From NCBI RefSeq assembly GCF_900105175.1, contig NZ_LT629771.1:6778622-6842621 (forward strand): a DNA stretch of 64,000 nt. The letters are read 5' to 3'. The position numbers were made by a program, and so were the translations under genes. The stretch comes from Jiangella sp. DSM 45060. GTDB taxonomy: Bacteria > Actinomycetota > Actinomycetes > Jiangellales > Jiangellaceae. Below are positions 7,526 to 61,147 of this stretch, in pieces; position 1 is the stretch's first letter, and every line of letters starts with the position of its first letter. A model generated the notes under the pieces. The model ran no database searches, was not told the DNA's origin, and saw only the letters and a program-made list of their open reading frames with translations.

Positions 7526-7636
7526 CCGACACCCTGTGGGGACGTTCCCACAAGGCCGTAACGTTGTCGTCCGGGCCGCCGTCCCCGCGTCGCGGCCCCC
7601 GCATCGCAGTCCGTCCGACGGAGGCTGGAACCCCGC

Positions 7637-10600
7637 ATGCACGACAACCGAGCCCTGGTCGAGAAGCGCCTGAAGCGAGTCCTGGGCCAGCGGCTCAGGC
7701 CGGCCGTCCACCGCACGGTCGCTCCCTTGTCCCTGACGGTCTGGCACGTCGACGGCGGCCAGGGCGAGCCGGTGCCGCCGCGGGTCGCGCTGCCCGGCGG
7801 CGAGGCGGTCGCCGACGGCCGCTACGTCCCGGTCGAGGTGGGTGAGCGGTGGGGGCCGCCGTGGGGCACGTCGTGGTTCCACGTGACCGGCGAGGTGCCG
7901 GCCGGGGCGGCCGGCCGCCGGGTCGAGCTGGTGCTCGACCTCGGCTGGGAGAACCGGTTCGCCGGGTTCCAGGCCGAGGGCCTGGCCTACCGTCCGGACG
8001 GCACGGTCGTGAAGGGCCTGCACCCGCGCAACGTGTGGCTGCCGGTCGGCGACCCGGTGTCCGGCGGCGAGCTGATCGACCTCTACGTCGAGGCCGCCGC
8101 CAACCCGCGGCTGGAGGGCGACTCGCCGTTCGCCGTGACGCCGCTCGGCGAGAAGTCGACCGCCGGCAGCGAGCCGCTGTACCGCGTCAACCGCGCCGAC
8201 GTCGCGGTGTTCGAGCAGGACGTGTGGGAGCTGTGGCAGGACCTCGAGGCGATCGGCGGCCTGATGCCGCAACTGCCCGAGGGCGAGCCGCGACGCTGGC
8301 AGCTGCTGCGCGCCGTCGAGCGGGCGCTGGACGCGCTGGACCTGCAGGACGTCGCCGGCACCGCGGCGGCGGCCCGGGCCGAGCTGATCGGCGTGCTCGC
8401 CAAGCCGGCCAACGCCAGCGCGCACCGGCTGTCCGCCGTCGGGCACGCGCACATCGACAGCGCGTGGCTGTGGCCGGTCCGCGAGACCGTCCGCAAGGTC
8501 GCGCGCACGACGTCGAACGTGGTCAACCTGCTGGACGAGTACCCCGACCTCGTCTACGCGATGTCGTCGGCGCAGCAGTACGCCTGGATCGAGGAGCACC
8601 GTCCCGAGGTGTTCGAACGCGTCGCCGAGCAGGTCGAAGGCGGGCGGTTCGTGCCGGTCGGCGGCATGTGGGTCGAGTCCGACACCAACCTGCCGGGGTC
8701 AGAGGCGATGGCCCGGCAACTGGTGCACGGCAAGCGGTACTTCCTGGACCGGTTCGGCATCGACACCCTGGAGGTCTGGCTGCCCGACTCGTTCGGCTAC
8801 TCGCCGGCGTTGCCGCAGCTGGTGACGTTGTCGGGGTCGCGCTGGTTCCTCACCCAGAAGATCTCCTGGAACAAGCAGAACGTCTTCCCGCACCACTCCT
8901 TCTGGTGGGAGGGCCTCGACGGCACCCGCGTCTTCACCCACTTCCCGCCGGTCGACACCTACAACTCCGACCTGTCCGGCGGGGAACTGGCGCACGCCGT
9001 GCGCAACTTCCGCGACAAGGGCGACGCGAACCGGTCGCTGGTCCCGTTCGGCTGGGGCGACGGCGGTGGCGGCCCGACCCGCGAGATGATCGCGCAGGCC
9101 CGCCGGACGGCCGACCTGGAGGGCTCGCCGCGGGTCGCCATCGAGAAGCCGTCCGAGTTCTTCGCCGCCGCCGAGGCCGAGTACCCGAACGCGCCGGTGT
9201 GGACCGGCGAGCTGTACCTCGAGATCCACCGTGCCACGTACACGTCGCAGGCCAAGACCAAGCAGGGCAACCGGCGCAGCGAGCACCTGCTGCACGAGGC
9301 CGAGCTGTGGTCGGCGACGGCGGCCGTGGCGGGCGCGGCCGACTACCCGTACGACGACCTCGACCGCATCTGGAAGCTGGTGCTGCTCAACCAGTTCCAC
9401 GACATCCTGCCCGGCTCGTCCATCGCCTGGGTGCACCGCGAGGCCCGCGACCAGTACGCGGCGATCACCGCCGAGCTGACCGAGATCGTCGGACGGGCGC
9501 AGCGCGCGCTCGCGGGCGACGGCGACACCACGGTCGCGTTCAACGCGGCGCCGCACGGCCGCCGCGACGTCCCGGCCTTCGCGGCGGCTCCGGTCGCGTC
9601 GTCGTCGCCGTCGACGGAGGTCGTCGCGGCCGACGGCGGCTACGTCCTCGACAACGGCCTGCTCCGGGTGACCGTCGACGGACGCGGGCTGCTCACGTCG
9701 GTGCTCGACCTCGAGGCCGGCCGCGAGGTGCTGGCCGGTCCCGGTAACCTGCTGCAGCTGCACCAGGACCTCCCCAACCAGTGGGACGCCTGGGACGTCG
9801 ACGAGTTCTACCGCAACACGGTCACCGACCTCGTCGGCGTCGACGAGCTGAGCGCTGGCGGCGACACCGTCAGGGTGGCGCGCACCTTCGGCGACTCGCA
9901 CGTCGTCCAGGAGCTCACCCTCGCGCCCGGCGCCAAGCGCGTCGACGTCAGCACCGAGGTCGACTGGCACGAGCGGGAGAAGTTCCTCAAGGCGGCGTTC
10001 CCGCTGGACGTGCAGACGCAGCGGGCGGCGTACGAGACGCAGTTCGGGCACCACTACCGGCCCACGCACGAGAACACGTCGTGGGACGCGGCGCGGTTCG
10101 AGGTGTGCGCGCACCGGTTCGTGCATCTCGAGGAGCCCGGCTACGGCGTGGCGCTGGTCAACGACTCCACCTACGGCCACGACGTCCGCCGCGGCGCGGC
10201 GCCGTCCGGCGGCACCACGACGACCGTGCGGCTGTCGCTGCTGCGGGCGCCGCGCTACCCCGACCCCGAGACCGACCAGGGCGTGCACACGCTGCGGTAC
10301 TCGCTGGTGCCGGGCGCGTCCATCGACGACGCGGTGCGCGAGGGGTACGCGCTCAACCTGCCGGCGCGGCTGGTCGAGGGCGCCGGTCACGAGGTCGAGC
10401 CGCTGGTCCGGGTGAGCGGCGGGTCCGTCGTCGTGTCGGCGGTCAAGCTGGCCGACGACCGCTCCGGCGACGTCGTCGTGCGGCTCTACGAGTCGGGCGG
10501 CGGGCGAGCGACGGCGACGCTGACGGCGTCGTTCCCGCTGGCCGGTGTCGAGGAGACCGACCTGCTGGAACGGCCGATCGAAGCGTCGGCGCTGGTCACC

Positions 10601-25978: not shown

Positions 25979-26659
25979 ATGCCAGTCGTCCCTGGCAGGA
26001 GAGCCATCGTACGAGGCCTCCGCGACCCGATGCAGACCTTGGGCTGGCGAGCCCGGGCGGCAGGTTGGTGGACTCTGGATGCCTCGGCTGGGTGGACCTA
26101 CGTCGTCACCGTGGGAACGGCGGTCGCGGGCCTTCCTGCGGGGCATGCGCGTGCAACCTCGTACGTCGGAGCCCGCAGTGAATCCATCGAGGTTGAGGTC
26201 GCGCGCGCATGTGGCCTCGCCGACTCCTATCGCAACCGCACCCTTGTGATTCCACTTGGCTACATGTTGCCGAAGCGTCGGCGGCGTGAGTTGCTCGTCG
26301 CGCCCGAAACGGTGACCGACGTTGCGGGTGAACTGGCCGACGAGCTGGCGTCGTATGCCGTGCCCTACCTGAGCGATCTCGTCGAGAGTTCTGACGCCGT
26401 GCTGTCCGAGACGGCCAAGGGATGGCTCCAATTGTCCGTGGTCGAGTTGACCCGTCACCTGATTGCCACGGAGCACCTTCGGGGTCGGGACCCGGCCCTC
26501 GAACTCGTTCGAGAGGCCCGGCGAGCGTTGGCTGGCCAGAACAACCCTGCCGCTGCTCAGAAGCGCAGCCTGTTGGACGGGCTCATGCGCGGCGACCACC
26601 GGCCCGGTCCCGGTAGGGACCGGGCGATGCGTCCGCCCGGCAGCGTTGGCGGAGGATAG
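25979..26659 (+). CDS. hypothetical protein ending inside the att repeat
   Basis: The 226-aa product is not recognised. The N-terminal half is Gly/Arg/Trp-rich (RARAAGWWTLDASAGWTYVV); the middle is helical (VTDVAGELADELASYAVPYLSDLVE). The last about 25 residues are low-complexity and its stop codon (TAG) is formed by the tRNA-Ser att repeat, so the natural 3' end may have been changed by integration. No clear RBS is present. Confidence 0.45.
   Translation: MPVVPGRRAIVRGLRDPMQTLGWRARAAGWWTLDASAGWTYVVTVGTAVAGLPAGHARATSYVGARSESIEVEVARACGLADSYRNRTLVIPLGYMLPKRRRRELLVAPETVTDVAGELADELASYAVPYLSDLVESSDAVLSETAKGWLQLSVVELTRHLIATEHLRGRDPALELVREARRALAGQNNPAAAQKRSLLDGLMRGDHRPGPGRDRAMRPPGSVGGG
26603..26624 (-). 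terminator. hairpin downstream of the left att site
   Basis: A perfect 9-bp stem CCCGGTCCC / GGGACCGGG with loop GGTA lies just past the displaced tRNA-Ser 3' half. It is probably the original terminator of tRNA-Ser(GGA), now separated from the gene by the element. Confidence 0.6.
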
Positions 26660-26704
26660 GGGATTCGAACCCCTGAGGGATTGCTCCCAACACGCTTTCC
26701 AAGC
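26647..26704 (-). repeat. left attachment site: displaced 3' half of tRNA-Ser(GGA)
   Basis: These 58 bp are identical to 41,086-41,143, the 3' half of tRNA-Ser(GGA) from the anticodon loop to the CCA end. Identity stops sharply at both edges. This is the core direct repeat made by site-specific integration. Confidence 0.93.
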
Positions 26705-26941: not shown

Positions 26942-27493
26942 ATGGTCACCGTATCGAAGCCGAAGAAGCGGGAGATCATCACCCGTGCTCCGTTCGTGAG
27001 TGATGACATCGGAGAGATCGTCGCGTACCACGATGAGGAAGGCCCGACCATTGATGTGACGATCCGCCCGGAGGACAGCGGTCAGTACGCGCAGTTCGGT
27101 CTCACTGCGGCCGAAGTGCACGAGCTGGCCGACGAGCTGCACCGCATTGCGAACAAGGTTCAGCGTGCCGGGTGGACCCCGACCATCCTCACGGACGCTC
27201 GGACGTACCTGCCGGGCATGACCGACGAGCAGATCATCGAGCGCCTGGACCGGCTCTACCGCCGCTGGGGCGGGCTCGTGATCGGGTTCCGCGGTCGCCT
27301 GGATCGCCGTGCCGGACGTGCGCTGGCGGTCGAGGTTCAGATGGAGACGCTGGAACGCTCTGTCGGCCTGGTCGAGCAGCACGCAGAGACCTTCTCCGGG
27401 GTTCCGGAGCTGGCGGACGGGCTGGCGGAGCTGCGGTCCTCGCTGGAGGCCGTGCGACAGTTGTACGTCGCGGAGTGGGAGCGTCAGCCGTGA
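26942..27493 (+). CDS. hypothetical AICE protein
   Basis: ATG 26942 with AGGGAGAG upstream gives 183 aa. The first half is beta-rich (VSDDIGEIVAYHDEEGPTIDVTI), the second half helical and charged (ADELHRIANKVQRAG; LERSVGLVEQHAETF). It overlaps the next gene (GTGA), so the two are translated together. No function was recognised. It is the first gene after the left att site. Confidence 0.6.
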   Translation: MVTVSKPKKREIITRAPFVSDDIGEIVAYHDEEGPTIDVTIRPEDSGQYAQFGLTAAEVHELADELHRIANKVQRAGWTPTILTDARTYLPGMTDEQIIERLDRLYRRWGGLVIGFRGRLDRRAGRALAVEVQMETLERSVGLVEQHAETFSGVPELADGLAELRSSLEAVRQLYVAEWERQP

Positions 27494-27967: not shown

Positions 27968-28330
27968 ATGGGTGCCTGGGTGATTCACGAACACCCTGAC
28001 GTGGCCAAGTGGTTGGAGGGCCTGACTGGGACGACGGCGGTGACTGTTGCCGCAGCCCTCGACCGGCTGGCCGAGGATGGGCCGGCGCTGGGTCGGCCGA
28101 CGGTGGACAGCATCAAGGGCAGCCGGCACCACAACATGAAGGAGCTGCGTGCGCGCACGGTGCGGATCTTGTTCGTGTTCGATCCACGACGCGCTGCCAT
28201 CCTCCTGGTGGCCGGCGACAAGCGTGGCGAGTGGGAACGCTGGTACAAGGCGTCGATCCCGCTCGCAGACGACCGATACGACGAGTGGCTGACCATGCTC
28301 GACGAGGGCAAGGCAAAGGGGGCGAGATGA
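27968..28330 (+). CDS. RelE/HigB-type toxin
   Basis: The 120-aa protein begins at ATG 27968, with only GAGGT close upstream. The RelE/HigB fold is suggested by VAKWLEGLTGTTAVTVAAALDRLAEDGPALGRP, MKELRARTVRILFVFDPRRAAILLVAGDKRG, and EWERWYKASIPLADDRYDEWL. Toxins of this family cut mRNA on the ribosome. It overlaps an XRE antitoxin gene by 4 bp, toxin first, as in higBA. Confidence 0.88.
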   Translation: MGAWVIHEHPDVAKWLEGLTGTTAVTVAAALDRLAEDGPALGRPTVDSIKGSRHHNMKELRARTVRILFVFDPRRAAILLVAGDKRGEWERWYKASIPLADDRYDEWLTMLDEGKAKGAR

Positions 28331-28668
28331 CACAGGAGATCGAGACCGCGACCAACACCGCGCGCTGGCCGACGTGGGCGGAGACCCGCGCGAAGCTGAA
28401 CGTCGACGAGGTCGCCGTTGCTCAGGCTCGTGCGGAGCTGGAGGCGGAGGAAGCCGCGTACCGCCTGGCGGAGATTCGGCGTGAGCAGCACCGCACCCAG
28501 ACTGACGTCGCCCGCGACATGGGCGTCAGCCAGAAGCGCGTTAGCGAGATCGAGCGCGGCGACTTGACCCGCACCGAGGTCGACACCATCAGCCGCTACG
28601 TCGCCGCCCTCGGCGGCCGCATCCGCATCGTCGCCGACTTCCCCGGACACAGCATCACTGTGCGTTGA
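28327..28668 (+). CDS. HigA-type XRE antitoxin
   Basis: The ATG overlaps the toxin stop (ATGA). The 113-aa protein has an N-terminal coiled region and a C-terminal XRE HTH (RTQTDVARDMGVSQKRVSEIERGDL). It should neutralise the preceding toxin and repress the pair. The pair may stabilise the element. Confidence 0.9.
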   Translation: MTQEIETATNTARWPTWAETRAKLNVDEVAVAQARAELEAEEAAYRLAEIRREQHRTQTDVARDMGVSQKRVSEIERGDLTRTEVDTISRYVAALGGRIRIVADFPGHSITVR

Positions 28669-28954: not shown

Positions 28955-30403
28955 TCAATCGCCTTCAACATCCAGTAGGAGCGTGTTCCTCGCAACGTCT
29001 CGTAGTGAGTAGTAGTCCCGATGACGTTGTACTAGCTGATTCGCCGATTCCACTGGAAATCCAAGCTCTACAAGCCATCGAGTGTCGAAGAGGACTCGGA
29101 GTGCTGCCGTCGCGCCTTGGACCTGACGAACATCATTGACCAGCTCCTTAGACGGGGGCAGTCCGTGCGAAGCGATGTTGCGGAGATATGCCACGCGGTT
29201 AGCCCAGCGATCTTCATCGTCTTCGGGTATGAGGCTTCGTACGGGGTGACCCGCTTCACGTTCCATCGCAAGTAATCGTTGCTCTAGTGAAGGGCCCAGA
29301 ATTGAATTGACTATCCCCTTCACGGGCTTTCGCCTGCGAGCATTCCACCCCATTTCCTGCAAGGCGCTACCGACAGCGCTAACGAGCACATCGCGGTCCC
29401 CCAGCTTTTCGGGAGGAACTCCATCGACACCCTCGTCGCCCTCGCGGCTGAATGACTCCACCATACGAACCCAAGACATGAAGGCCTCAACGTGTCGAGT
29501 TTGTCGACGCGACATCAGTGATGCATACTGCTCGATCGAGTATCTGTGTGAATTCACGATGGCCGAGGCGCGTGTGATGAGACTTGGAAAGTCGAGGTCC
29601 TTGAGAGTGTACAGCGTGTCATGGTGGCTTAGATCCGTCATGCCATCACGCGAGGAGTGACTAGTTCGGATTGTCATCCATTTGTTGGGACCTTTCAGAT
29701 CCTTCCCGTCGACTTGCCAGGTCGAATTGGTGACAGCGAGGGACCGGATTCCGGATAGTCGCCGTGAGGAGGTTATGATCAGGAGCTCAATGGGGATGAG
29801 CCATACGTTCGTGATCTCCTCGAACGATAGGGGCTGGTCAAACTTAATTCGAATTGCACTTTCGTCCCTAAGCTCGACCGGGCGCCCGGCCGAAGGCATT
29901 GGTATTGTTGTCGCGTCCTCCAGCTGAATTCTGGCACCTGGGAACTCCGCGACGATTGGGTCGGGCGTGGTTCGCTTGATTGTGCTTTCGTGAAAGTCCT
30001 TACTTAGAACATACGAGTAGGCCGCCCATGCCGACCAGGGCTCTTGGTCCCAGAACTGAATTCTGAGCTCATCGTAACGGCACTCCTCAGGTTCAAGCCA
30101 GAGGCTACCTTCTAGCGCATACGTGGCTCGAACCGTTGCTTGAGTGCCACCAGGAACTACGGTCCGATGGTTAACGACACGTGTTCCGATCAAGGTCACG
30201 GCCTTGCCGAAAACTCTGCCGTATAGGTGGTTCGGAACCATGTGCCATGTGTCGATAGAAGCGTCTTGGATGTCTTCATCCCAGATCCCATCGAGCGCAG
30301 CCATGCCGGCGCCGGTCGTCGCGTCTACCCAGTAGCGTCCCGGGATACCAGATTCGTCATTAGGCTCTCGTACCCACTGTGCTGGCTCCTCAGTTGCGAC
30401 CAT
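28955..30403 (-). CDS. ApeA-like anti-phage HEPN protein
   Basis: From ATG 30403 the protein has 482 aa. The N-terminal about 300 residues are beta-rich (GRVFGKAVTLIG, ATYALEGSLWLEPEE, DELRIQFWDQEPWSAW, NVWLIPIELLIITSSRRLSG), as in ApeA N-terminal domains. The C-terminal helical part has the HEPN ribonuclease motif R-x4-H in RNIASHG (Arg408, His413). ApeA proteins cause abortive infection by RNA cleavage; that is family knowledge. Base composition is lower in GC than the core genes. The conserved intergenic element copy A lies directly upstream, in the same direction. Confidence 0.75.
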   Translation of the reverse strand: MVATEEPAQWVREPNDESGIPGRYWVDATTGAGMAALDGIWDEDIQDASIDTWHMVPNHLYGRVFGKAVTLIGTRVVNHRTVVPGGTQATVRATYALEGSLWLEPEECRYDELRIQFWDQEPWSAWAAYSYVLSKDFHESTIKRTTPDPIVAEFPGARIQLEDATTIPMPSAGRPVELRDESAIRIKFDQPLSFEEITNVWLIPIELLIITSSRRLSGIRSLAVTNSTWQVDGKDLKGPNKWMTIRTSHSSRDGMTDLSHHDTLYTLKDLDFPSLITRASAIVNSHRYSIEQYASLMSRRQTRHVEAFMSWVRMVESFSREGDEGVDGVPPEKLGDRDVLVSAVGSALQEMGWNARRRKPVKGIVNSILGPSLEQRLLAMEREAGHPVRSLIPEDDEDRWANRVAYLRNIASHGLPPSKELVNDVRQVQGATAALRVLFDTRWLVELGFPVESANQLVQRHRDYYSLRDVARNTLLLDVEGD

Positions 30404-30451: not shown

Positions 30452-30754
30452 TCTGAGGCGTCGTTCTCGTAGCTGCCCCGGTGTAGGTCGAAGCGGAGCG
30501 GGTCCAGGGTGCCGTAGGCATCGCGCAGCGACGGCTTGATGTTTCGTCTGCAAGGGGTGAGCTGTTCGTGCGAGCCGACAGCGCTTGACGAAACTTCAAG
30601 CCGCCCTTGACGCGCGTAGCGGAGGCCGCAGACTGGCCGCGTAGAGGGCGGAGCCGGGCGGTGACTGTTGAGGCTGGCTTGCATGGAGCGCGGTGCGACC
30701 CGTCTTCGTTCCGCCCGGTCGCGCCCCGGAACGGCCGCCAGGCCGCATGCCCGG
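30452..30754 (-). repeat. conserved intergenic element, copy A
   Basis: Read on the minus strand, this stretch shares ordered blocks with 60,907-61,147: an identical 23-nt block (30,732-30,754 and 60,907-60,929), CCCTCTACGCGGCCAGTCT, CGCGCGTCAAGGGCG, GACCCGCTCCGCT and GACGAC-CTCAG. Between blocks sits an inverted repeat, GCTTGATGTTTCGTC (30,534-30,548) against GACGAAACTTCAAGC (30,587-30,601), with one mismatch in 15. It ends about 48 nt before the apeA-like start. A frame across it exists in each copy, but a 1-nt indel breaks agreement, so it is probably noncoding: a leader RNA, promoter module or dispersed repeat. Confidence 0.7.
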
Positions 30755-30862
30755 GCGCGACCGGGCGGAGACGGCGCGTCAGCGCCGCTTGATCTCGAAA
30801 AGGTGGACTCGGCAACGGCGGCCTCGTTGGCCTTGTTGGCGTGCTGGCAAATAGGACCCTCC

Positions 30863-32289: not shown

Positions 32290-33023
32290 GGTTCGGCCGC
32301 TTCAAGAGCCTCAGTCATGCCGACGACGTCCGGTATTCGTACGGTACGAAAATGGCCGGGCTCATATTCAGCCAGGGGAACGACATGCTGAAGGTCTATC
32401 GCTGGCCAAACTTTACCGTGAGCCGAACCGCTTGCCGCACGCCATATGCGCTCCAGGTCTTCGGGCACGTAATCAATTATTGGCGCTGTAGCTTGAAGGA
32501 CGGTAAAGTGGTTAGGCCGTTTCAATTCGACTTCTTTATACGCGGGTGCAGTGCGCTCCAGCAAGAGCCTGTCCATTTCTTGCACGTGCTGCTTCGCGTT
32601 CGTGGTCGGCAGACTCTTTCGATGTTCCTCGTAGTCCCACCTTATAAGGCAAAGATGCCTCCGAGCGCACTCGCGCGCGGAGCCTCCCGCCATTGTCCAC
32701 ACTGCCTGTGAGGCTGATTCCAGCGCAGCGCGTGCGAGCGTATACGCTGGCCGGAAGCTGTGCGTCACCTCGTGGTCCGGTGGGAAATTGAGTGGAGCGA
32801 CATACTCCGCCCAGAGAAGCAAATGCTCCAAGGCTGCCCGGAGGTAGGAGCGACACCAGTCGGATGCCTTCTCGTGGACATATATTTCGTTGATCTTCAC
32901 GAAATTGGAGATGGGGGACGGGTCGCCGAGTTGCGTCATGATTCGATTGCATATGCGTGCGCTATGCGCCACTGCGGTCCATTTGAGAATTGTTACAGGG
33001 TCAATCGGAATCCGTGGCTCCAT
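32286..33023 (-). CDS. HEPN-like helical protein
   Basis: The 245-aa all-helical protein starts 23 bp inside the preceding PP2C-like gene. Characteristic patterns are YLRAALEHLLLWAEYVAPLNFPPDHE, FRPAYTLARAALESASQAVWTMAG, RRHLCLIRWDYEEH and RIWRAASGSAHGKVWP. The last is similar to the R-x(4-6)-H ending of HEPN-type helices. I know this pattern from unannotated actinobacterial proteins only. A ribonuclease or Abi-like effector role is possible but unproven. It overlaps the 53-aa gene downstream. Confidence 0.55.
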   Translation of the reverse strand: MEPRIPIDPVTILKWTAVAHSARICNRIMTQLGDPSPISNFVKINEIYVHEKASDWCRSYLRAALEHLLLWAEYVAPLNFPPDHEVTHSFRPAYTLARAALESASQAVWTMAGGSARECARRHLCLIRWDYEEHRKSLPTTNAKQHVQEMDRLLLERTAPAYKEVELKRPNHFTVLQATAPIIDYVPEDLERIWRAASGSAHGKVWPAIDLQHVVPLAEYEPGHFRTVRIPDVVGMTEALEAAEP

Positions 33024-33867
33024 CCCACGATGATATAAGCTGGTCGAGGCGATCTGGCTGAATGTAGATCGCGGTGGCGTCGTCGCTCGCTTTGCCCCGG
33101 GGCCACCGGTGGCCCTTGGGATCGCTGGCTTCGGCTTCGCGTACCCGGTCGAGAAGCGCCGCCGGCCCGTGCGACCGGAGTTGAGCTAATAGGTCAGTCC
33201 AGTCCATCAGGTGGAAACGATCAACGGTCCTGCTAGCTCCGTCAGTTAGCAGCGCGGCGGCACGTAGATCGTGAGCCCGAACTGCACCTATCAAGGCATG
33301 TTCTGCAGCTATCGCTTCGGTGCTGGCCACCCAGAATCCGCCATCCCGGTTGCGATGGGCTCGCATGGCTTCGACGTAATCGCGCAGTGCGCTAGCGTGC
33401 TCGACGCTTCCGTTCGCAGTGGCGTCCATCGCGGGCCGGTAGCGAGCGCCGATGGCGGCTTCGCGGTCGTCGCAGATGATGACGAGACCGCTCGCGAGAT
33501 CGAGGATGAGCGGTGAGTCGGCCAGGACGAGGTATTCGATGGTGTCACCTTGATCGCGGATGGCGGTGACAGTGGCAGACGGTGACCCAGGGTGTCCGAG
33601 ATCGCAGGTGCTCGCATGGAGGGCATTGACGCTATTGATGGCGACGGCGAGGCAGTCAGTCATCGGCCGGTGGAGGTCAGCCAACTGGCCGACGTAGGAA
33701 GCGCCGAGCATGTGGCTATACCAAGCGACGCCATGGCGACAGCCAGATTCCGAGTCGGGAGGTACGCCTGCGCCGTCAATGACCACCGCGACGTTGCTTG
33801 TGACCGCGGCGAAGTCTTCGTTCTTCTGATCGGCGGTCGCGGGAATCGACGCGAGTTGAGCGCGCAT
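33001..33867 (-). CDS. PP2C-like protein phosphatase
   Basis: The 288-aa protein keeps PP2C landmarks: NEDFAAVTSNVAVVIDGAGVP near the start (metal Asp/Gly motif), YLVLADSPLILDL, AALLTDGASRTVDRF and KASDDATAIYI near the end (metal Asp). These proteins remove phosphate from Ser/Thr. The start overlaps the stop of the HTH gene upstream (TGATG) and the gene overlaps the HEPN-like one downstream, so it is in the middle of a four-gene operon. No kinase gene is present in the element. Confidence 0.75.
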   Translation of the reverse strand: MRAQLASIPATADQKNEDFAAVTSNVAVVIDGAGVPPDSESGCRHGVAWYSHMLGASYVGQLADLHRPMTDCLAVAINSVNALHASTCDLGHPGSPSATVTAIRDQGDTIEYLVLADSPLILDLASGLVIICDDREAAIGARYRPAMDATANGSVEHASALRDYVEAMRAHRNRDGGFWVASTEAIAAEHALIGAVRAHDLRAAALLTDGASRTVDRFHLMDWTDLLAQLRSHGPAALLDRVREAEASDPKGHRWPRGKASDDATAIYIQPDRLDQLISSWDGATDSD

Positions 33868-34712
33868 CAGCCGCCTGCCTCGTGGCGGTAGAGAGGGGTA
33901 AGCAATCGAGCTGCTGTGGGGTCGTGCGTCGCGGGGTCGTAGTCGACCTCGACAAGCGCCGAGAACTGTTCTGTGCCGGCCTGTTCGTAGAGATCAGCTA
34001 GGTCCGCGGTGAGCAACTGTACGACGCCGAGTGAGCCCGGTGGATGGATGCCGGTGAAGAGCAGAAGTGTGCCCTTGCCGTCTGGGCGGCGCAGTCGAGC
34101 AAGGTACGCGGGGTCCGTGGCCCGGGGTGGTTCCTGGTCTTGTCCGGAGCGGTAGACGGCATCAGCTCGGGAGTCGCGTAGCGTCCACACGCCGTCAGCC
34201 GCTCGTTCGAAGCGGATCGCGGGGTCTTGTGCGAGCGTCGCGGCAACGGGCTCGGACAGTCTCGGGCCGCAGATGACGATGAGGTTGTCTCGGTTGAGGT
34301 CGACCTGACCGTCTGTCGGGATCTGCTCGTGCTCGACGTCAAGGCGGAGGGAGCGCGCGAGCTCGCCAAGGCGTTGCGCCGCTGTGAAGTCCTCCGCTGC
34401 GACAACGGGTCGGGAGTTGCCGGCCTCGTGCTTGAGAGGTGTCAGGATCACGACCCGGCCGCGCCCGAGGAACGCCGCTTCGGGTGCCGCTCCAGCCTGG
34501 CGGAGCTGGAAGATCCGTCCGCGGCTCAGTCCCGCGGCGTTGGCAATGTCGGCGTAGGACATGCCCTGATCGCGAAGGTCCTGGATTACCTTCCGGCGCA
34601 GACGAGCAAGCTCGGTGACTTCGCGCTGCGCGGTCGTGATCCGACCGCTTGCTTCCCGCAGCAGCTCGAAAGGGTCCTTGATCGCTGCGATGCGTTCTAC
34701 CTCGTCATTCAC
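33867..34712 (-). CDS. sigma-like HTH DNA-binding regulator
   Basis: The 281-aa protein has an N-terminal helical region and a sigma-70-region-4-like HTH (IQDLRDQGMSYADIANAAGLSRGRIFQLRQAG, about 43-75). The remaining about 200 residues form an unknown alpha/beta domain (VVILTPLKHEAGNSRPVVAAEDF, LIVICGPRLSEPVAATLAQD, TLLLFTGIHPPGSLGVVQLL) reminiscent of nucleotide or ligand sensing. It heads the operon with the PP2C-like gene and is divergent from the pra-like gene, with operator-like repeats between. It probably controls both directions. Confidence 0.7.
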   Translation of the reverse strand: MNDEVERIAAIKDPFELLREASGRITTAQREVTELARLRRKVIQDLRDQGMSYADIANAAGLSRGRIFQLRQAGAAPEAAFLGRGRVVILTPLKHEAGNSRPVVAAEDFTAAQRLGELARSLRLDVEHEQIPTDGQVDLNRDNLIVICGPRLSEPVAATLAQDPAIRFERAADGVWTLRDSRADAVYRSGQDQEPPRATDPAYLARLRRPDGKGTLLLFTGIHPPGSLGVVQLLTADLADLYEQAGTEQFSALVEVDYDPATHDPTAARLLTPLYRHEAGG

Positions 34713-36302: not shown

Positions 36303-36532
36303 TCACCGCACTCGTCGACTGCTCGCGCTGCCCGCGCCTCGTCACGACCGCTGAGGCGTGGTTCTACCCCGCCACCGGCGAACGGCTGTGCTCCGGCTGC
36401 CACGCGGCCGCACACGCCCGCCACCTGGCGCTGACGACTCGGCGCACCTCCGAGGTGACCCCGATGCCACGAACGAACGCGATGACGCCTGAACGGGGCG
36501 TCCCGAGCCCGGCCGGGAGGTGGGCGCGATGA
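36299..36532 (+). CDS. small zinc-binding protein
   Basis: GTG 36,299 overlaps the stop before it. The 77-aa product has CSRC and CSGC pairs (LVDCSRCPRLV, RLCSGCHAAAHARH), a likely zinc site, and a low-complexity tail. It overlaps the translocase gene start. Confidence 0.55.
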   Translation: MITALVDCSRCPRLVTTAEAWFYPATGERLCSGCHAAAHARHLALTTRRTSEVTPMPRTNAMTPERGVPSPAGRWAR

Positions 36533-37941
36533 TGTGGCTGCTGAAGCTCGTGACCGGTGTCTGGCTGCTCCAGCTGGCCTGGCGATTCAAGCGCGCCCTG
36601 GCCGTAGCAGCTCTGGTCGTGCTCGTGTTCGCCGCCTACGGGTGGGCCAGCCTTGTCGTCCTGGTAGTGGGTCCGCCGCTGCTCGCTGTCGTGTGGCGGT
36701 GGGTGCACCCCTGGTCGTACTGGCGGTACGTGGGCTGGCTGATGGCCCGTCACCGCCTCCGCACGACATACGGGCTGCGCTGGGTCGAGGTCATACAGTC
36801 CTGCGGCCTGCACCGCCCGATCCCCGGACGGCCCGGTGACGTGGCGATTCCGCGGTTGGTGCGGGTGAGTGAGAGCGCAGTCGGTGACGTGCTGCACGCA
36901 CGGTTGCTCACTGGTCAGGAGCCGGGTGACTTCGAACGCCAGGCCGCCGAACTCGCCCATGCTCTGGGCGCGACCGCCGTGCGGGTCACCTCCACCGGTC
37001 CCGGCCTGGTCGACCTGACCCTGGTCGAGCGTGACGTGCTCGATGACGGCGTCGTGTTGGAGGACGTCGAGCCGGTGACGGATCTCCGGGCGGTGCGGTT
37101 CGCGGTCGGTGAGGACGGCCAGTGGCGCACGAGGGATTACGCGAACATCGCCGCCGAGGTCGGCGGTGGTGTCCCCGGCAGCGGGAAGACGGCCGGCGAA
37201 ACGGGCCTGGCGTGTGGGCTGATCCAGAACCCGGCCGTGCAGTACGTCGTGATCGACGGCAAGGGCGGCGAGGACTGGTCCTGGATCGCCCCACGCGCGG
37301 CCGCCTACACGAATGAGGACGAAGACCTGAACGTCGTTCTCGAGTTGGTGGAGTCCGTGCACCGGCTGATGCGGGCACGGTTGAAGACGCAGAAGACCCA
37401 GCGGGGACAGGCGAACTTCTGGAACCTGCCGCTCGATCCAGCCCACCCGGTCGTGTTCTTGGTCGTGGACGAGGTGCAGACGTTCACCGACTCCAAAGGC
37501 ATGGACAAGGACACCAAGACCGTCGCGGCCACGATCACGGCCCGGTTGTCGGCGCTGGTGAAGAAGGGCCGCTCCGCCGGCATCATCACCCGGCTACTGA
37601 CCCAGAAGCCCACCAGCGATGCCATCCCGACCGCCATCCGCGACAACGCCTCCGTCCGGACAGCCTGGCGAGTCCTCTCCGACGACGCAGCCGAAGCCAT
37701 CCTCGGACCCGTCGTCCGCGGCTCCGCCGTATCTCCCGTCGACATCCCGGTCGGCATGCCCGGTGTCGCCGTGGTTGCCGACGCTGGCGGGCAGCTCGAA
37801 CGGGTCCGCTTCCCCTACGTCGACGAGCACACCGCCGAACAGATCGCCACCCGGACAACGGAGCTGCGCCGCGACCTGGCCGACCTCACCGGCCCCACAG
37901 CGGCCGACAAGGCGCCCGCAGATGAGGAGGCGACGACGTGA
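36529..37941 (+). CDS. FtsK/SpoIIIE-like DNA translocase (TraSA-type transfer protein)
   Basis: ATG 36,529 is placed 8 nt after GGGAGG; an in-frame GTG at 36,520 is possible. The 470-aa protein has two N-terminal membrane segments (about 5-60), then the motor domain with Walker A GGGVPGSGKTAGE (about 222) and Walker B VVFLVVDEVQTF (about 313), and the FtsK-like segment AVSPVDIPVGMPGVAVVA. In AICEs one such protein moves double-stranded DNA into the recipient. It overlaps rep (GTGA). Confidence 0.88.
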   Translation: MMWLLKLVTGVWLLQLAWRFKRALAVAALVVLVFAAYGWASLVVLVVGPPLLAVVWRWVHPWSYWRYVGWLMARHRLRTTYGLRWVEVIQSCGLHRPIPGRPGDVAIPRLVRVSESAVGDVLHARLLTGQEPGDFERQAAELAHALGATAVRVTSTGPGLVDLTLVERDVLDDGVVLEDVEPVTDLRAVRFAVGEDGQWRTRDYANIAAEVGGGVPGSGKTAGETGLACGLIQNPAVQYVVIDGKGGEDWSWIAPRAAAYTNEDEDLNVVLELVESVHRLMRARLKTQKTQRGQANFWNLPLDPAHPVVFLVVDEVQTFTDSKGMDKDTKTVAATITARLSALVKKGRSAGIITRLLTQKPTSDAIPTAIRDNASVRTAWRVLSDDAAEAILGPVVRGSAVSPVDIPVGMPGVAVVADAGGQLERVRFPYVDEHTAEQIATRTTELRRDLADLTGPTAADKAPADEEATT

Positions 37942-39515
37942 CGGCCCTGCCCGATGACGCGACCATGCGCGAGCTCGCAGCATCTGAGCGGGTGTGCGTG
38001 CGGCCGATCCTGCAACGCGTCACCGACACCATCACTGGCACCGTCCGCACCGTGGTTATCCCGTGTGGGGCCACGCGGGCGAAGGTGTGCCCCTCGTGCG
38101 CGGACGCGGCCCGCAGGCTGCGGATCCAGCAGTGCCGCGAGGGGTGGCACCTCACCGAGGACCCACCCAAGCCCGGCGACACCGAGCCTGACGACAGCGA
38201 CACTGACGATGCGGACGGCGACGTTGACGGTGAGGACGCGGACGCTCACGATGTCGACGAGGCCGGTCGGCGGGTGCGCTCGACGCGGCGGCGGCAGGAC
38301 GCACCGGACCTCCCGCGGCTGGCCGTCTCCGACCGCACGACGGGTCGCGTGTTCGAGTCGCCGGACGGGAAGACGTACCGGCCGTCGATGTTCGTCACCC
38401 TCACCCTGCCGTCCTACGGGCGCGTCACCAGCGAGGGCGTGCCCGTCGATCCGCGGTCGTACGACTATCGGCGGGCTGCATTGGATGCGATGCACTTCCC
38501 GAAGCTGGTCGACCGGTTCTGGCAGAACCTGCGCCGCGCGACCGGGTACTCGGTGCAGTACTTCGCCACCGTCGAACCCCAACGCCGCCTCGCCCCGCAT
38601 CTGCACGCCGCCATCCGGGGAGCCATCCCCAGGAAGCTGCTCAAGCAGGTGGTGGCCGCGACCTACCACCAGGTGTGGTGGCCGCAGCTCGACGACCCGG
38701 TCTATACCGACCCGGACGAGCTGCCGGTGTGGGACGAGCTGGGCCAGGCCTACGCCGACCCGACCACCGGTGCGGTACTGCCGACGTGGGATGAGGCGCT
38801 GGATGCCATCGACGACGACCCGGAAGCGTCGCCGGCACACGTGATCCGCGCCGGGTCGCAGGTCGACATCCAGGGCGTCATCGCCGGAACACCGCTGGCG
38901 GATCGGGTCATCGGCTACCTCACCAAGTACCTGACCAAGTCGATCACGGACCCGCTCCACGACGGCGACAGCGACGGCGAAGCACCTGTCTCGGCAGCGC
39001 GCAGGGCGCACATCGACCGGATCGCCGAGGAGGTCCGTTGGTTGCCGTGCTCGCCGACGTGCGCGAACTGGCTCCGTTACGGCGTCCAGCCCAAGGACGC
39101 GAAGGGCGGTATGGAGCCGGGCCGGTGCGGGTCGAAGGCGCACGACCGGGATCATCTCGGCCTCGGCGGTCGCCGCGTCCTCGTCTCCCGGCGGTGGACC
39201 GGTAAGACCCTCGACGACCACCGCGCGGACCGCGCCGCCGTCGTCAGGGCCGTCCTGGCCGAGGCCGGGATCGAGATGGACGACCACGACGAGCTTTCGG
39301 CAACCGCGGCCCGTCCCGATGGCCTGCCTCGGTTCGTGTGGACGACGACGAAGCCCGGCGACCTCGACGCCCCGGCCTACGCCCGGCTCATCGCGCACGC
39401 CATCGCGCAGAAACACCGCTGGCGAACCCAGTACGAGGACGCCAAGACCCGCGCCGGCCCACAGGCGCCCGGTCCTTCGGCAACCGCAGCACGTGCCGCT
39501 GCCCCGGCGGCGTAA
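37938..39515 (+). CDS. RepSA-like replication initiator (HUH family)
   Basis: GTG 37,938 overlaps the translocase stop. The 525-aa protein begins with a Cys-rich zinc-like region (CGATRAKVCPSCADAARRL). Rolling-circle Rep motifs follow: motif 1 SMFVTLTLPSYG, HUH motif PHLHAAIRG (His221, His223) and the tyrosine motif YLTKYLTKS (Tyr327, Tyr331). Late Cys (LPCSPTCANW) may bind metal. An acidic low-complexity stretch (about 75-110) follows the zinc region. The product should nick the element origin. It is a close relative of the Rep at 53,572-55,146. Confidence 0.88.
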   Translation: MTALPDDATMRELAASERVCVRPILQRVTDTITGTVRTVVIPCGATRAKVCPSCADAARRLRIQQCREGWHLTEDPPKPGDTEPDDSDTDDADGDVDGEDADAHDVDEAGRRVRSTRRRQDAPDLPRLAVSDRTTGRVFESPDGKTYRPSMFVTLTLPSYGRVTSEGVPVDPRSYDYRRAALDAMHFPKLVDRFWQNLRRATGYSVQYFATVEPQRRLAPHLHAAIRGAIPRKLLKQVVAATYHQVWWPQLDDPVYTDPDELPVWDELGQAYADPTTGAVLPTWDEALDAIDDDPEASPAHVIRAGSQVDIQGVIAGTPLADRVIGYLTKYLTKSITDPLHDGDSDGEAPVSAARRAHIDRIAEEVRWLPCSPTCANWLRYGVQPKDAKGGMEPGRCGSKAHDRDHLGLGGRRVLVSRRWTGKTLDDHRADRAAVVRAVLAEAGIEMDDHDELSATAARPDGLPRFVWTTTKPGDLDAPAYARLIAHAIAQKHRWRTQYEDAKTRAGPQAPGPSATAARAAAPAA

Positions 39516-39763: not shown

Positions 39764-41010
39764 TGGCCACGCGCAGACCCAACGGTGCGTCGAGCATCTA
39801 CCTCGGGAAGGACGGCGACTGGCACGGCCGCGTCACCGTTGGCATCAAGGATGACGGCTCGCCGGACCGCCGCCACGTGCAACGCAAGACCGAAGCCGAG
39901 GTCATCGCCGCCGTGCGCAAGCTCGAACGTGACCGCGACGCCGGAGCCGTCCGCAAGGCAGGGCAACGATAGACCGTCGAGACCTGGCTCATGCACTGGA
40001 TCGAGAACATCGCCGCTCCGCCCGCGATCAGCGAGTACACGCACGACGGGTATCGCCGGGACATCAGGGTTCACCTGGTGCCCGGTGTCGGGAAGCACCG
40101 CCTCGAACGCCTGCAACCCGAACATCTGGAGAAGCTGTACGCGACCATGCAGAAGGAGAAGGGTCGCAGCGCGGGAACGGCTCACCACGTGCACCGGACC
40201 ATCCGGGCCGCGCTGAACGAAGCCGTGCGACGCAAGTACCTGACCTCGAACCCGGCCACCCAGGCGAAGGCTCCAAACGTCCAGGAGATCGAGGTCGAGC
40301 CGTACGACGTCGACGAGGTCAAGCGGCTGCTGAAGGTGGCAGGCGAGCGCCGGAACAGTGCTCGGTGGGCGGTCGCGCTGGCGCTGGGTCTTCGTCAGGG
40401 TGAGGCGCTGGGGTTGAAGTGGTCGCATCTCGACCTGGAGACCGGGACCTTGCGCGTCCGCCGTAGTCGGCTGCGGCCGAAGTTCGCCCACGGCTGCGGC
40501 GAGACGTGCGGACGGCAGAAGGCCGGCGACTGCCCGAAGCGCATCCAGGTCAACGCCGACACGAAGGACACGAAGTCGCGCGCCGGCCGTCGCGTCGTCG
40601 GACTACCGTCACAGCTCGTCACGCTGCTGGAGGAGCACCGTGAGGAACAGAACGCGGAGCGGGCCGCCGCTGGGGATGACTGGAAGGACGAGGGCTGGGT
40701 GTTCGCGAAGCCCAACGGGACCGCGCTCGCCCCGGCGACCGACTATCACGAGTGGAAGCGGCTGTTGAAGTCCGCCGGCGTTCGTGACGGCCGGCTGCAC
40801 GATGCCCGGCATACGGCGTCGACCGTGCTGCTGATCCTCGGCGTGCCGGAACGCACCGTCATGTCCATCATGGGATGGTCGTCGACAGCGATGGCGGCCC
40901 GATACCAGCACGTCACCGACCCGATCCGACGAGCGGTCGCGGCGCAGGTGGACGGGCTGTTGTGGGCCGACCAGGGCGACGACGAGAAGCCTGTTGACGA
41001 GGGCAAATGA
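39763..41010 (+). pseudogene. tyrosine integrase with in-frame amber codon
   Basis: The reading frame runs from ATG 39,763 to 41,010 but codon 70 (39,970-39,972) is TAG, between GAVRKAGQR and TVETWLMHWIE. A Trp (TGG) is a likely ancestor. The remainder is a complete catalytic part: core-binding domain, ALGLRQGEALGLKW (catalytic Arg), HDARHTAS (His-x2-Arg), IMGWSSTAMAARYQHV (nucleophile Tyr). An ATG at 39,991 could start a 339-aa protein without the N-terminal arm-binding domain. Either the element is locked in place or it depends on stop readthrough or a truncated integrase. The gene lies next to the tRNA target. Confidence 0.85.
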
Positions 41011-41085: not shown

Positions 41086-41143
41086 TGGCGGAGGATAGGG
41101 GATTCGAACCCCTGAGGGATTGCTCCCAACACGCTTTCCAAGC
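41086..41143 (-). repeat. right attachment site within tRNA-Ser(GGA)
   Basis: This is the second copy of the 58-bp direct repeat, forming the 3' half of the intact tRNA-Ser(GGA). The other copy is at 26,647-26,704. Confidence 0.93.
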
Positions 41144-41173
41144 GTGCGCCCTAGGCCACTAGGCGAATCCTCC
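41089..41173 (-). tRNA. tRNA-Ser(GGA)
   Basis: On the minus strand the acceptor stem GGAGGAT pairs with ATCCTCC, discriminator G, and encoded CCA at 41,086-41,088. The anticodon arm is CACGC-TTGGAAA-GCGTG, anticodon GGA, reading UCC/UCU. A long variable arm follows (TTGGGAGCAATCCCTC), then T-arm GGGGTTCGAATCCCC. It is the integration target of AICE-1. Confidence 0.97.
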
Positions 41174-51958: not shown

Positions 51959-52036
<78 letters not shown>

Positions 52037-52049
52037 CCATCATCGCAGC

Positions 52050-53309
52050 TCACGAGCCCTCTTCGGAGGGCTCTTCCGTTTCTCCGGGCTCGCTCTCGTC
52101 GGCCGGAGTCAGCGGAAAGTCAGCGAAGGCGTCCGTGAGGCGCGGGTCGAAGCCCAGCCGCGCGTGCGTGTACAGGTCGAGCGTGGTCGACGGGCGCTCG
52201 TGGCCCATGACGCGCTGGACGTCATTGACGGGCACGCCGTCGGACACCAGCCAAGTCGCGTACGAGTGGCGCAGGTCGTGGAAGCGCAGCCCGCCCGAGC
52301 AGCGGCGGGCGACCTCGTGTACAGCGTGCTGCTCCTTGGCGAACGTTGCCGTGTGCTCGTGCCCGGCGTCGTCGCGCCAGGTGGCTTCGAACTGGTCGAC
52401 CGCCACTTGGGCGACCTCACCCAGCAGCCCGGCCCGCACGAGCGACGGGCGCCACACCCGAGCCCGGAACAGCGTCCGGCGCGGCGGTCCGCCGACCTCG
52501 TTGGTGAAGACCTCGCCGGCCGGACCGGGCGCAAAGGTGCCCTGGTGGTGACGCAGCGCCTCGACGACGAACGGCGGCAACGGGACCACGCGGCGGCCAG
52601 CGCGCGACTTCGGGAACGGCTTGCCCGTCACGGTGCCCGCGACCTCGACGGCGACGCGGACGACATGCACCTGGCGGGCGGCCAGGTCGACGGCGTTCCA
52701 GCGCAGCCCGACGCACTCGCCCCACCTCAACCCCGTCCCGCCGGCCACCGCCACCAGGGCCACATACCGGTCCGGAATCACGGGCAGCAGCTTGTGGAGG
52801 AACGCCTCGCGGGTGATGGTGCGCTCGTCGGTGTCCTTGCGCCGCCGCTTCGGGAGGCGGACACCCTCAGCCGGGTTGTACGCGATCACTCGGTCACGTA
52901 CGGCCGACCGCAGGATCGACGACAGAAGCCGGTAGCACTCCCGCACGGTCGCGGCGGAGCGTCGCGCCGACAGCTCGGCGACCCATGCCTGAACGGACGA
53001 GTGATCGATCTTTGCCAGCGGGACCGTGGCCCAGCGCGGGACCACGTGCGTGCGCAGGATCGAACGGTCGCGGGCATCCGTGGTGATCTCGTGGCTGCGA
53101 CCGGCGAGCCAGGTCGGCAGGTAGTCACCGAGCTTTACTCGGCCTGCGTGCGGGTCGACGTAGAACCCGCGGTTCCGGGTCGACTCGACCTCGGCGAGGA
53201 ACCTCGACGCGTCGCGCTTGGTCGGAAACGTCTTGGCGCGCTGGCGGCCGGACGGATCGCGCCAGTTCGCCCGCCAGCTCCCGGCATCGGTCTTGACGAT
53301 GTGGCCCAT
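52050..53309 (-). CDS. tyrosine site-specific integrase
   Basis: The 419-aa protein has an N-terminal AP2-like arm-binding domain (GSWRANWRDPSGRQRAKTFPTKRDASRFL), core-binding domain (LGDYLPTWLAGR...LSARRSAATVRECYRLLSSILRSAV) and catalytic domain: GGTGLRWGECVGLRW (Arg), HDLRHSYATWL (His-x2-Arg), VMGHERPSTTLDLYTHA (His, Tyr nucleophile). The frame is intact. Its stop is 15 bp from the tRNA-Pro CCA, as expected for an element using that tRNA. Confidence 0.93.
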   Translation of the reverse strand: MGHIVKTDAGSWRANWRDPSGRQRAKTFPTKRDASRFLAEVESTRNRGFYVDPHAGRVKLGDYLPTWLAGRSHEITTDARDRSILRTHVVPRWATVPLAKIDHSSVQAWVAELSARRSAATVRECYRLLSSILRSAVRDRVIAYNPAEGVRLPKRRRKDTDERTITREAFLHKLLPVIPDRYVALVAVAGGTGLRWGECVGLRWNAVDLAARQVHVVRVAVEVAGTVTGKPFPKSRAGRRVVPLPPFVVEALRHHQGTFAPGPAGEVFTNEVGGPPRRTLFRARVWRPSLVRAGLLGEVAQVAVDQFEATWRDDAGHEHTATFAKEQHAVHEVARRCSGGLRFHDLRHSYATWLVSDGVPVNDVQRVMGHERPSTTLDLYTHARLGFDPRLTDAFADFPLTPADESEPGETEEPSEEGS

Positions 53310-53587
53310 CAGAACAGCCCGCCTTGGCCGGGGAGCAGCGGTCCGGGTTCCGGATCGGGCTCGACGGTGACGTCCTCGAGCCAGTCGTGGAACGCCTGTT
53401 TGGGGATCACCCAGCGTCCGCCGAGCTTGCGCGCCGGGATGTCGCCGGACCGGACGAGGGCGTAGGTGCCGCCGAGGGCGAGGTTCAGCAGCTCCGCGAC
53501 TTCGGCGACGGAGTAGACCAGGGCGTCGACGCGGGGTTGTTGTCCTGGCGGTCTGTGGGCGTCGAGGCGGATCACGTTGTCGGGCAT
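53309..53587 (-). CDS. excisionase (Xis), HTH
   Basis: The 92-aa protein has the excisionase HTH (YSVAEVAELLNLALGGTYALVRSGDIPARKLGGRWVIPKQAFHDWL). Its start overlaps the rep stop region and its stop touches the integrase ATG, so rep-xis-int is one operon. It controls the direction of recombination. Confidence 0.88.
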   Translation of the reverse strand: MPDNVIRLDAHRPPGQQPRVDALVYSVAEVAELLNLALGGTYALVRSGDIPARKLGGRWVIPKQAFHDWLEDVTVEPDPEPGPLLPGQGGLF

Positions 53588-55146: not shown

Positions 55147-55475
55147 CACTGCCGCCCCGCCGGTCGCGGCGTGACCATGAACGCTGGCTCGTCGTCCTCC
55201 GGCCGGTACACGGGCAGCGGCCGGCGCAGCTCGGCGGGATCGACGGCCGGCGTGGCCTCCATCAGGCCATGCACGCAGTGGCACGCGTCCAGCGGTCCGA
55301 TCACGCCGAAGCCGTCGCAGTCGATGCACACGATCCACACCGACCGCTCGTGCAGGCCGATGCAGCGCGGCGAGGCGCACCACCGGTAGCCGCACCAGAT
55401 GCACACCTGGGCGAAGTTCAGCCGCAACGGCCGCAGCGTCGCCGCCATGGCTTGGGCGAGTGTCTGGGTCGTCAT
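55146..55475 (-). CDS. small Cys-rich protein upstream of rep
   Basis: GGAGG with ideal spacing sets ATG 55,475, giving 109 aa. It has CIWCGYRWCASPRC and CIDCDG...CHC patterns, so one or two zinc sites are likely. It overlaps rep by one base. It occupies the place that small zinc proteins and the translocase have in AICE-1. Function unknown. Confidence 0.65.
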   Translation of the reverse strand: MTTQTLAQAMAATLRPLRLNFAQVCIWCGYRWCASPRCIGLHERSVWIVCIDCDGFGVIGPLDACHCVHGLMEATPAVDPAELRRPLPVYRPEDDEPAFMVTPRPAGRQ

Positions 55476-55520
55476 CGTGACCTCCGGGGATAGGGGATGA
55501 CTCCATCCAGCACTCAACAC

Positions 55521-55547
55521 GTTATAACAAGTAGAACGACTGGACAA
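55521..55547 (-). promoter_or_regulatory. candidate promoter of the rep-xis-int operon
   Basis: On the minus strand TTGTCC (55,547-55,542) and TATAAC (55,526-55,521) are separated by 15-16 bp. The -10 sits in the palindrome GTTATAAC. It lies between the GntR gene and the operon start, so GntR control is likely. Confidence 0.35.
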
Positions 55548-55638
55548 CACGGATTCCGACACGCCACGCTGACCGCCTGAGTTACGCGGGCGACCGCCCA
55601 GGTGGAAGACTTGTTCTGTCGAGTAGAGGGGAGGGCCT

Positions 55639-56735: not shown

Positions 56736-56793
56736 GTCCATCACTATTCGGGCGCATCGCCGGACGGATGTCGACTGTTCCAATGCCCACGAC

Positions 56794-60906: not shown

Positions 60907-61147
60907 CCGGGCATGCGGCCTGGCGGCCGGTCCCTCCCGATCGCCGGTGGCGGCCACACGCACGGGCACGACCCTTGGCTAGACAACCGGAACAGTCACC
61001 GACCGCCGTCCCCCTCTACGCGGCCAGTCTCCGGCCTCCACTCCGCGCGTCAAGGGCGCTTCTCGTCACTACGTGACCGGCTTTCGCCGACCCTTGACCC
61101 GCTCCGCTCCGACCTACGATCGGCGGCTACGAGGACGACGGCTCAGC
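60907..61147 (+). repeat. conserved intergenic element, copy B
   Basis: This is the partner of copy A (30,452-30,754, minus strand), with the same order of blocks but about 60 nt shorter in one interval. The variable interval holds another hairpin at the equivalent place (GTCAC-TAC-GTGAC). The copy ends about 25 nt before the ATG of the 61,173 gene. Both copies lie between divergent defence-type genes and run toward a start codon. Confidence 0.7.

Follow-up and report, generated by a model that had tools for sequence, protein, structure and literature searches.

Each of two integrated islands of Jiangella sp. DSM 45060 carries one copy of an element that is a strand-polar site of actinomycete integrative elements (AICEs) tied to RepSA replication. 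Judging from its sequence, this element is probably a cis-acting replication site of RepSA-type AICEs, most likely a single-strand origin of the sso/sti type. The best reading of its two modules, LE and RE, is a bipartite form of such an origin, in which RE is new. The element is linked to RepSA across the genus in a constant orientation, its structure is conserved, and LE is homologous to an interval of the plasmid pIJ101 in which the sso is expected. A first-pass annotation had described noncoding, structured DNA common to two accessory islands, and this was borne out.

Two AICE-type islands

The window, that is, the whole stretch of 64,000 nucleotides that was analysed, holds two integrated elements of the AICE type, AICE-A and AICE-B, each with its own copy (A or B) inside. 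Both have att direct repeats at tRNA 3′ ends, an integrase and a RepSA rolling-circle initiator. The repeats are 58 bp of the tRNA-Ser end in AICE-A (at 26,647 and 41,086) and 47 bp of the tRNA-Pro end in AICE-B (at 51,989 and 65,105). The integrase of AICE-A was recognised by Pfam, and the integrase and excisionase of AICE-B by eye. The features of the two islands are the following.

26,647–26,704, no strand: att repeat of AICE-A, 58 bp, 3′ end of tRNA-Ser
26,942–27,493, plus strand: conserved AICE protein c1 in AICE-A (by clustering; the representative has no Pfam match)
28,955–30,403, minus strand: ApeA-like HEPN protein, cargo of AICE-A (PF18862, PF18739; start uncertain)
36,520–37,941, plus strand: AICE-A candidate for a transfer-type protein (cluster c4), with a Walker A motif seen by eye and without a Pfam match
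37,938–39,515, plus strand: RepSA replication initiator of AICE-A (PF20199, E 1.7e-100), on the strand opposite to element A
39,991–41,010, plus strand: tyrosine integrase of AICE-A (PF00589, E 6e-22)
41,086–41,143, no strand: other att repeat of AICE-A, inside tRNA-Ser(gga) at 41,086–41,173
51,989–52,035, no strand: att repeat of AICE-B, 47 bp, 3′ end of tRNA-Pro (partner at 65,105–65,151, outside the window)
52,050–53,309, minus strand: integrase of AICE-B, 419 aa (resembles cluster c6 by eye; the c6 representative has PF00589)
53,309–53,587, minus strand: excisionase-like protein of AICE-B (resembles cluster c13 by eye)
53,815–55,110, minus strand: RepSA domain of AICE-B (PF20199 match), on the strand opposite to element B
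55,639–56,415, plus strand: GntR/UTRA regulator of AICE-B, cluster c2 (by clustering; the representative has PF00392 and PF07702)
56,794–60,546, minus strand: KAP P-loop NTPase (QatA/PifA-like), cargo of AICE-B (PF07693, E 1e-37; PADLOC QatA, E 4e-23)
61,173–61,895, plus strand: cargo gene after copy B (no family found in Pfam or PADLOC)
63,241–63,618, minus strand: PIN toxin of a toxin-antitoxin module, past the cargo of AICE-B (cluster c10; representative PF01850)

As for an FtsK-like transfer protein, the candidate of AICE-A (36,520–37,941) has no Pfam match. In AICE-B, no transfer gene was recognised by eye in 13 kb (51,989–64,000 of the window, and locus L131), and this island may be mobilised rather than self-transferring. 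In AICE-A, a PP2C-like gene adjoins another that has a weak match of the sigma-70 region 4 type (33,001–34,712), and the pair occupies the place that the GntR gene has in other islands.

The shared element and its coding status

Local alignment of copy A with copy B gives a score of 214, against a maximum of 63 in 300 single-letter shuffles (mean 38.7, SD 6.2) and of 84 among 149 other segments of the window. Identical blocks of 23 nt (CCGGGCATGCGGCCTGGCGGCCG) and 19 nt (CCCTCTACGCGGCCAGTCT) occur in both copies, together with further blocks in the same order. The near-identical blocks reported in the first-pass annotation are thus real, given the shuffle maximum. The limits proposed for them had to be revised, as the LE model places the upstream limit 61 nt farther out in A and 71 nt in B. 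In the same genome, blastn with copy A finds these two places, everything else having an E value of 0.004 or worse, and the LE model finds the same two copies.

30,453–30,815, minus strand: whole element, copy A (LE and RE model matches)
30,728–30,815, minus strand: LE module of copy A, with GC hairpins and a GATCAAG core (model R2, 74.3 bits, E 7e-19)
30,655–30,727, minus strand: variable 73-nt middle of copy A (from the alignment)
30,453–30,654, minus strand: RE module of copy A, an imperfect palindrome with inner hairpins (model R1, 106.5 bits, E 8e-27)
30,533–30,602, minus strand: extra stem-loop of 15–16 bp inside the RE of copy A (fold, by eye)
60,836–61,146, plus strand: whole element, copy B (LE and RE model matches)
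60,836–60,933, plus strand: LE module of copy B (model R2, 85.4 bits, E 3e-22)
60,934–61,005, plus strand: variable 72-nt middle of copy B (from the alignment)
61,006–61,146, plus strand: RE module of copy B (model R1, 138.7 bits, E 8e-36)
61,065–61,089, plus strand: two small hairpins in the RE of copy B, GTCAC-TAC-GTGAC and CGGC-TTTC-GCCG

Each copy is spanned by a reading frame that had been judged not to encode a protein. Over 41 copies that frame is not kept: the best frame is open in 36 copies for LE and in 14 for RE, and the RE length, taken modulo 3, is spread over all three remainders (19, 11 and 11 copies). A protein reading was rejected, as a conserved frame is absent over these copies. 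The element is, in effect, noncoding DNA with no frame open throughout, and in both islands it belongs to a replicon with a rolling-circle initiator, RepSA.

Anatomy and structure of LE and RE

An alignment of 25 copies resolves two modules, LE followed by RE in fixed order, with a variable stretch between them. LE has about 93 nt, with a GATCAAG core and GC hairpins. RE has about 142 nt and forms a large imperfect palindrome (CGTC.CCTCATAGC.GCC ... GGCAGCTATGAGGACGACG) with inner arms GTCAAGGG/CCCTTGAC and small hairpins at its centre. Covariance models were built for RE (R1) and LE (R2). At E 1e-3, R2 finds 49 LEs in 12 Jiangella genomes, and an RE lies downstream on the same strand in 42 of them, at a gap of 67–1290 nt. 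Conversely, 42 of 48 REs of at least 62.9 bits have an LE partner; these RE counts leave out mirror-strand matches of the palindrome and the weaker of the listed R1 matches (from about 53 bits down, with many from a single genome), which were dropped as probable GC-hairpin noise.

In the RE structure of 33 pairs, 95.1% of cells are paired, compared with 26–47% when the structure is slid along the alignment, a control that favours the structure because it was derived from the same sequences. Fourteen pairs are changed on both sides, against 4.5 in shuffles (SD 1.3), a value reached by 0 of 500 shuffles, although the kinship of the sequences favours such a comparison. A weaker covariation measure, further pair types, gives 23 against 19.8, and 18 of 500 shuffles reach 23. 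These counts refer to 22 of the 25 aligned copies, as A, L022 and L036 were excluded for insertions or truncation. By these comparisons, RE is a covarying palindrome. Its wobble counts (14 G-T and 10 A-C) do not single out either strand.

It had also been claimed that a hairpin occupies the same place in both copies with a different sequence. This holds for the small hairpins: according to the folds, paired by eye, the counterparts in A of GTCAC-TAC-GTGAC and CGGC-TTTC-GCCG are TCGC-TGC-GCGA and TGCC-TAC-GGCA, and these differences amount to compensatory changes. It does not hold for the 15-bp stem of copy A, which is extra; its arms, at about 30,533–30,548 and 30,587–30,602, replace the first small hairpin.

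Linkage to RepSA and distribution

The element follows RepSA. In the 12 Jiangella genomes, all 34 RepSA loci (35 match rows, two fragments of one locus having been merged) have an LE within 12 kb, always on the strand opposite to rep. The 34 loci pair with 34 distinct LEs, and LE is on the 5′ side of rep in 33. Orientation is shared by descent among related islands, so the 34 cases are not 34 independent events. The other 15 of the 49 Jiangella LEs are the nearest LE of no RepSA. Outside Jiangella, 16 of 26 LE matches lie within 20 kb of a RepSA gene, in six families, and all 16 are opposite to it; the remaining ten, some of them on short contigs, have no RepSA within 20 kb. Orientation relative to rep, judged by position only, is thus fixed in 34 of 34 and 16 of 16 cases.

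The reverse count is much lower. Outside Jiangella, an LE occurs within 20 kb in only 16 of 81 RepSA loci (15 of the 66 near-full-length ones, with stricter search filters), so most RepSA replicons there use something else or something too diverged. This class-wide survey covered 118 genomes, part of them with the stricter filters, and three RepSA rows below the cut-off and all Jiangella rows were excluded.

Sequence searches show how far each module extends. In a blastn search with copy B, 23 of 60 genomes (own genome included) match at E 1e-4, including all 11 other Jiangella genomes, and RE-like stretches also appear in genomes of two further families (G033; G038 and G058). A 24-mer of LE retrieves 65 stretches, all from actinomycetes (for instance, Streptomyces, Amycolatopsis, Nocardioides and Nonomuraea), of which R2 confirms 63. 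None of these 63 loci exceeds 8 kb in length, and a backbone gene was detected in 36 of them by a quick phmmer search; all 7 Rep genes run opposite to LE, and GntR shares the LE strand in 20 cases and is on the other strand in 3. R1 finds an RE in all 18 loci of the 24-mer set from Jiangella, Phytoactinopolyspora and MAGs of the same family; of the remaining 45 loci, two have one, in Microbispora rosea (64.5 bits) and Saccharopolyspora (32 bits). Searches with blastn of copy A against plasmids and of copy B against phages and plasmids found nothing, and tblastn of c1 against plasmids gave no match; in viral contigs the LE 24-mer had 0 matches and the RE pattern 2. On this sequence evidence, LE appears to be the more widespread module, common to pIJ101, pSN22, pMR2 and many actinomycete genera, and RE a second, palindromic module of Jiangellales and a few other lineages.

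Strand polarity of the hairpin loops

Hairpins of at least 4 bp with a 3-nt loop were counted in 41 copies, one truncated copy having been dropped. The elements contain 225 such hairpins. A C(GNA)G triloop is found in 100 of them on the strand that complements the LE reading and in 0 on the LE strand itself; as the copies are homologous, these counts are not independent. Two or more C(GNA)G hairpins occur in 33 of the 41 copies. The flanks have 32 on the minus and 42 on the plus strand, of 1346. A similar picture emerges outside Jiangellales, where 45 LEs hold 36 minus and 0 plus of 80, the 500 nt after these LEs lack polarity (3 minus and 5 plus of 107), and the rest of the loci has 37 minus and 53 plus of 1779.

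The strand of the element that bears C(GNA)G is the rep-sense strand. In rolling-circle replicons, the rep-sense strand is normally the displaced strand. Loops of the GNA and GNNA type are described as forming unusually stable DNA mini-hairpins (PMC4686876). The loop polarity points to single-stranded DNA of the strand opposite to the LE reading. Structure is conserved on one strand by RE covariation and triloop polarity, and the wobble counts are neutral.

Relation to pIJ101 and other plasmids

R2 detects an LE in pIJ101 at 7263–7343 (30.2 bits; next best 12.8), as well as in pMR2 (26.7 bits), pSN22 (24.2 bits) and an NBC_01454 plasmid. LE is opposite to rep in pIJ101, pMR2 and pSN22. In pJV1, a blastn match to the LE module is also opposite to rep, with a weak R2 match (12.3 bits). 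The open reading frames of pIJ101 include a 135-aa protein with an SRDE motif at 8377–7970 and a frame at 7208–6966, which we take to be korB. The rep gene of pIJ101 was assigned to a minus-strand frame by eye and from the published 8489–1970 segment (PMC11985553). The gene order of this plasmid is given as rep, spdA2 and sso(sti) in PMC4170104, where pIJ702, which lacks the sso, is reported to accumulate single-stranded DNA. Because of this order and of the frame positions, the pIJ101 sso should lie between 7970 and 7208, the interval that holds the LE. The pIJ101 sti is described as the site of second-strand synthesis, and pIJ86 replicates without it (PMC11985553); it measures 0.2 kb, and cop acts only on plasmids carrying sti in the natural orientation (PMC9761944).

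Any homology to a mapped sso would be that of LE, which matches pIJ101 in an interval assigned by gene order; RE has no such match. RE compared with the second modules of pIJ101, pSN22 and pJV1 and with pMR2 scores within shuffles, and R1 on these four plasmids gives at best a truncated match of 17.1 bits, with no credible RE relative. A model of the second module of Streptomyces plasmids (R3), searched against 31 sources (the window, 19 loci of the same genus, pMR2 and 10 loci of other genera), reaches 16.8 bits at best (E 0.3). In Streptomyces plasmids (L122, L124, L125 and L129), an LE-like module is accompanied by a second conserved one, which precedes it in some and follows it in others, at a distance of up to about 0.5 kb. 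Since both order and spacing vary, the two are separable units.

The element resembles the sti/sso of pIJ101 in being noncoding, rich in GC hairpins and opposite to rep, besides the LE match. By contrast, pIJ101 has no RE that could be found, its different second module is not alignable to RE and is absent from the loci searched with R3, and the region has 0 C(GNA)G triloops among 5. The sso region of pSN22 likewise has an LE opposite to rep; it differs in the lack of a detectable RE, in the reverse order of its modules, about 0.5 kb apart, and in its triloops (0 of 7). Plasmid pMR2 of Micromonospora rosaria has an LE opposite to rep and a RepSA-type initiator, and its C(GNA)G triloops are confined to one strand, the same as in the element (3 and 0 of 6); no RE was found there. 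In pJV1 the triloops number 2 and 0 of 8. The integrative conjugative element ICEBs1 of Bacillus subtilis differs in host phylum and replication proteins. Its sso1 is an orientation-specific second-strand origin on an element of this kind (PMC4595007).

Perhaps the element is instead a transfer locus (clt/oriT-like) at which TraB-type translocases load on the island. The element does lie in a mobile island, in fixed orientation, and the LE of pIJ101 is near korB, close to which clt is described in PMC3583192. However, the clt-type GMAAC cluster of pIJ101 is at 6876–6915, past the 3′ end of korB, with two scattered copies in 7209–7673. Moreover, a count of 8-mers in the stretch from LE to RE (39 copies) gave at most 3 occurrences of any one, and AICE-B has the element, yet no transfer gene was recognised by eye in its 13 kb. 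A transfer function is unlikely.

Alternatively, the covarying helices of RE might belong to a structured regulatory RNA of the island, such as a copy-number or incompatibility RNA made from either strand. GNA loops occur in RNA too. It also fits that sti was first named for strong incompatibility (PMC11985553). Nevertheless, there is no excess of G-U over A-C pairs (14 and 10), and an Rfam search of the element gave no family at gathering score, which makes an RNA quite improbable.

Gene neighbourhood

Clustering of the genes around 42 copies reveals a recurrent set. Upstream of LE-RE are a RepSA or Tra-type gene with others, a GntR or other regulator, and variable cargo; downstream are variable cargo, a toxin-antitoxin pair of varying type, and then c3 and c1, although c1 is missing from the fetched stretch in some copies (e.g., L100, L101, L111, L114, L115 and L119). 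Relative to LE, rep (c7) is opposite in 12 of 12 cases and c1 in 34 of 34, and GntR has the LE orientation in 26 of 26, two loci with two copies each being counted twice. The neighbours are variable and partly of defence type, in line with the first-pass annotation. The representatives of the two conserved AICE proteins, c1 (about 174–183 aa) and c3 (about 98 aa), have no Pfam match. The slot between cargo and c3-c1 holds differing toxin-antitoxin pairs (HigBA-, VapBC-, PIN- and BrnT-like, names partly by eye), in the window at 27,968–28,668 and 63,241–63,980. In 5 of 42 copies (L083, L098, L100, L103 and L108), two TGTC(A/G)NGnATC repeats stand 68–69 and 43–44 nt before the LE start; they may be an IS21-type end, which we take them to resemble, or an operator. 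An idea of Tn554 or IS ends, prompted by genes near RE, was dropped, as the neighbours are AICE backbone and toxin-antitoxin genes.

The first-pass annotation had favoured a structured leader RNA or a mobile promoter/leader module that accessory genes carry, ending 25–48 nt before a start codon. The element is indeed close to an ATG, at corrected distances from the RE end of 49 nt in A (ATG at 30,403, other same-frame starts being nearer or inside the element) and 26 nt in B (ATG at 61,173). In addition, 11 of 41 copies have their first downstream frame of at least 120 aa on the same strand as the element, and in seven of these the frame starts −18 to +48 nt from the element's end. However, in the other 30 copies that frame is on the opposite strand (by a crude ORF picker), and in seven copies the element is directly past the 3′ end of gene c15, which faces it at 21–30 nt. 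Listing the genes 3′ of the covariance-model matches, as had been proposed, revealed no fixed gene start on the same strand. Linkage and the fixed opposite orientation are to RepSA and not to any one cargo gene, and a leader or promoter role is very improbable. Equally improbable is a non-autonomous, MITE-like repeat or a pair of cargo-cassette ends, which the palindromic RE and the LE-RE gap of 67 to 1290 nt might recall, as the own genome has one strong copy per island and no other, and copies follow RepSA loci with order and strand fixed relative to the backbone.

A possible route of second-strand synthesis

If the element is a second-strand origin, the island would first excise, and RepSA, by its Rep family, would nick it and start rolling-circle replication. 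The displaced strand would be of rep sense and, given the constant opposite orientation, bear the reverse complement of LE-RE. On this strand, LE and RE may form hairpins capped with C(GNA)G and GNNA mini-loops. Host factors, either primase or RNA polymerase, could then start the complementary strand at LE-RE, which would also give RE its role. Defence and other cargo genes have gathered on both sides of LE-RE.

More tentatively, the sequences may define a new class of bipartite second-strand origins, with arrays of C(GNA)G/GNNA DNA mini-hairpins on the displaced strand, a widespread LE, a second module that can be exchanged (RE in these islands, one unrelated to it in Streptomyces plasmids), and defence cargo alongside. 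No description of a second-strand origin in an AICE was found in the available parts of the open-licence literature, and one may exist. Cis-sites of this class are hard to find because sso's share little sequence (PMC4595007), and the LE and RE models provide a searchable handle on them. The element also specifies which strand and which hairpin loops merit testing, and it serves as a marker for the places in which defence genes are stored on these islands.
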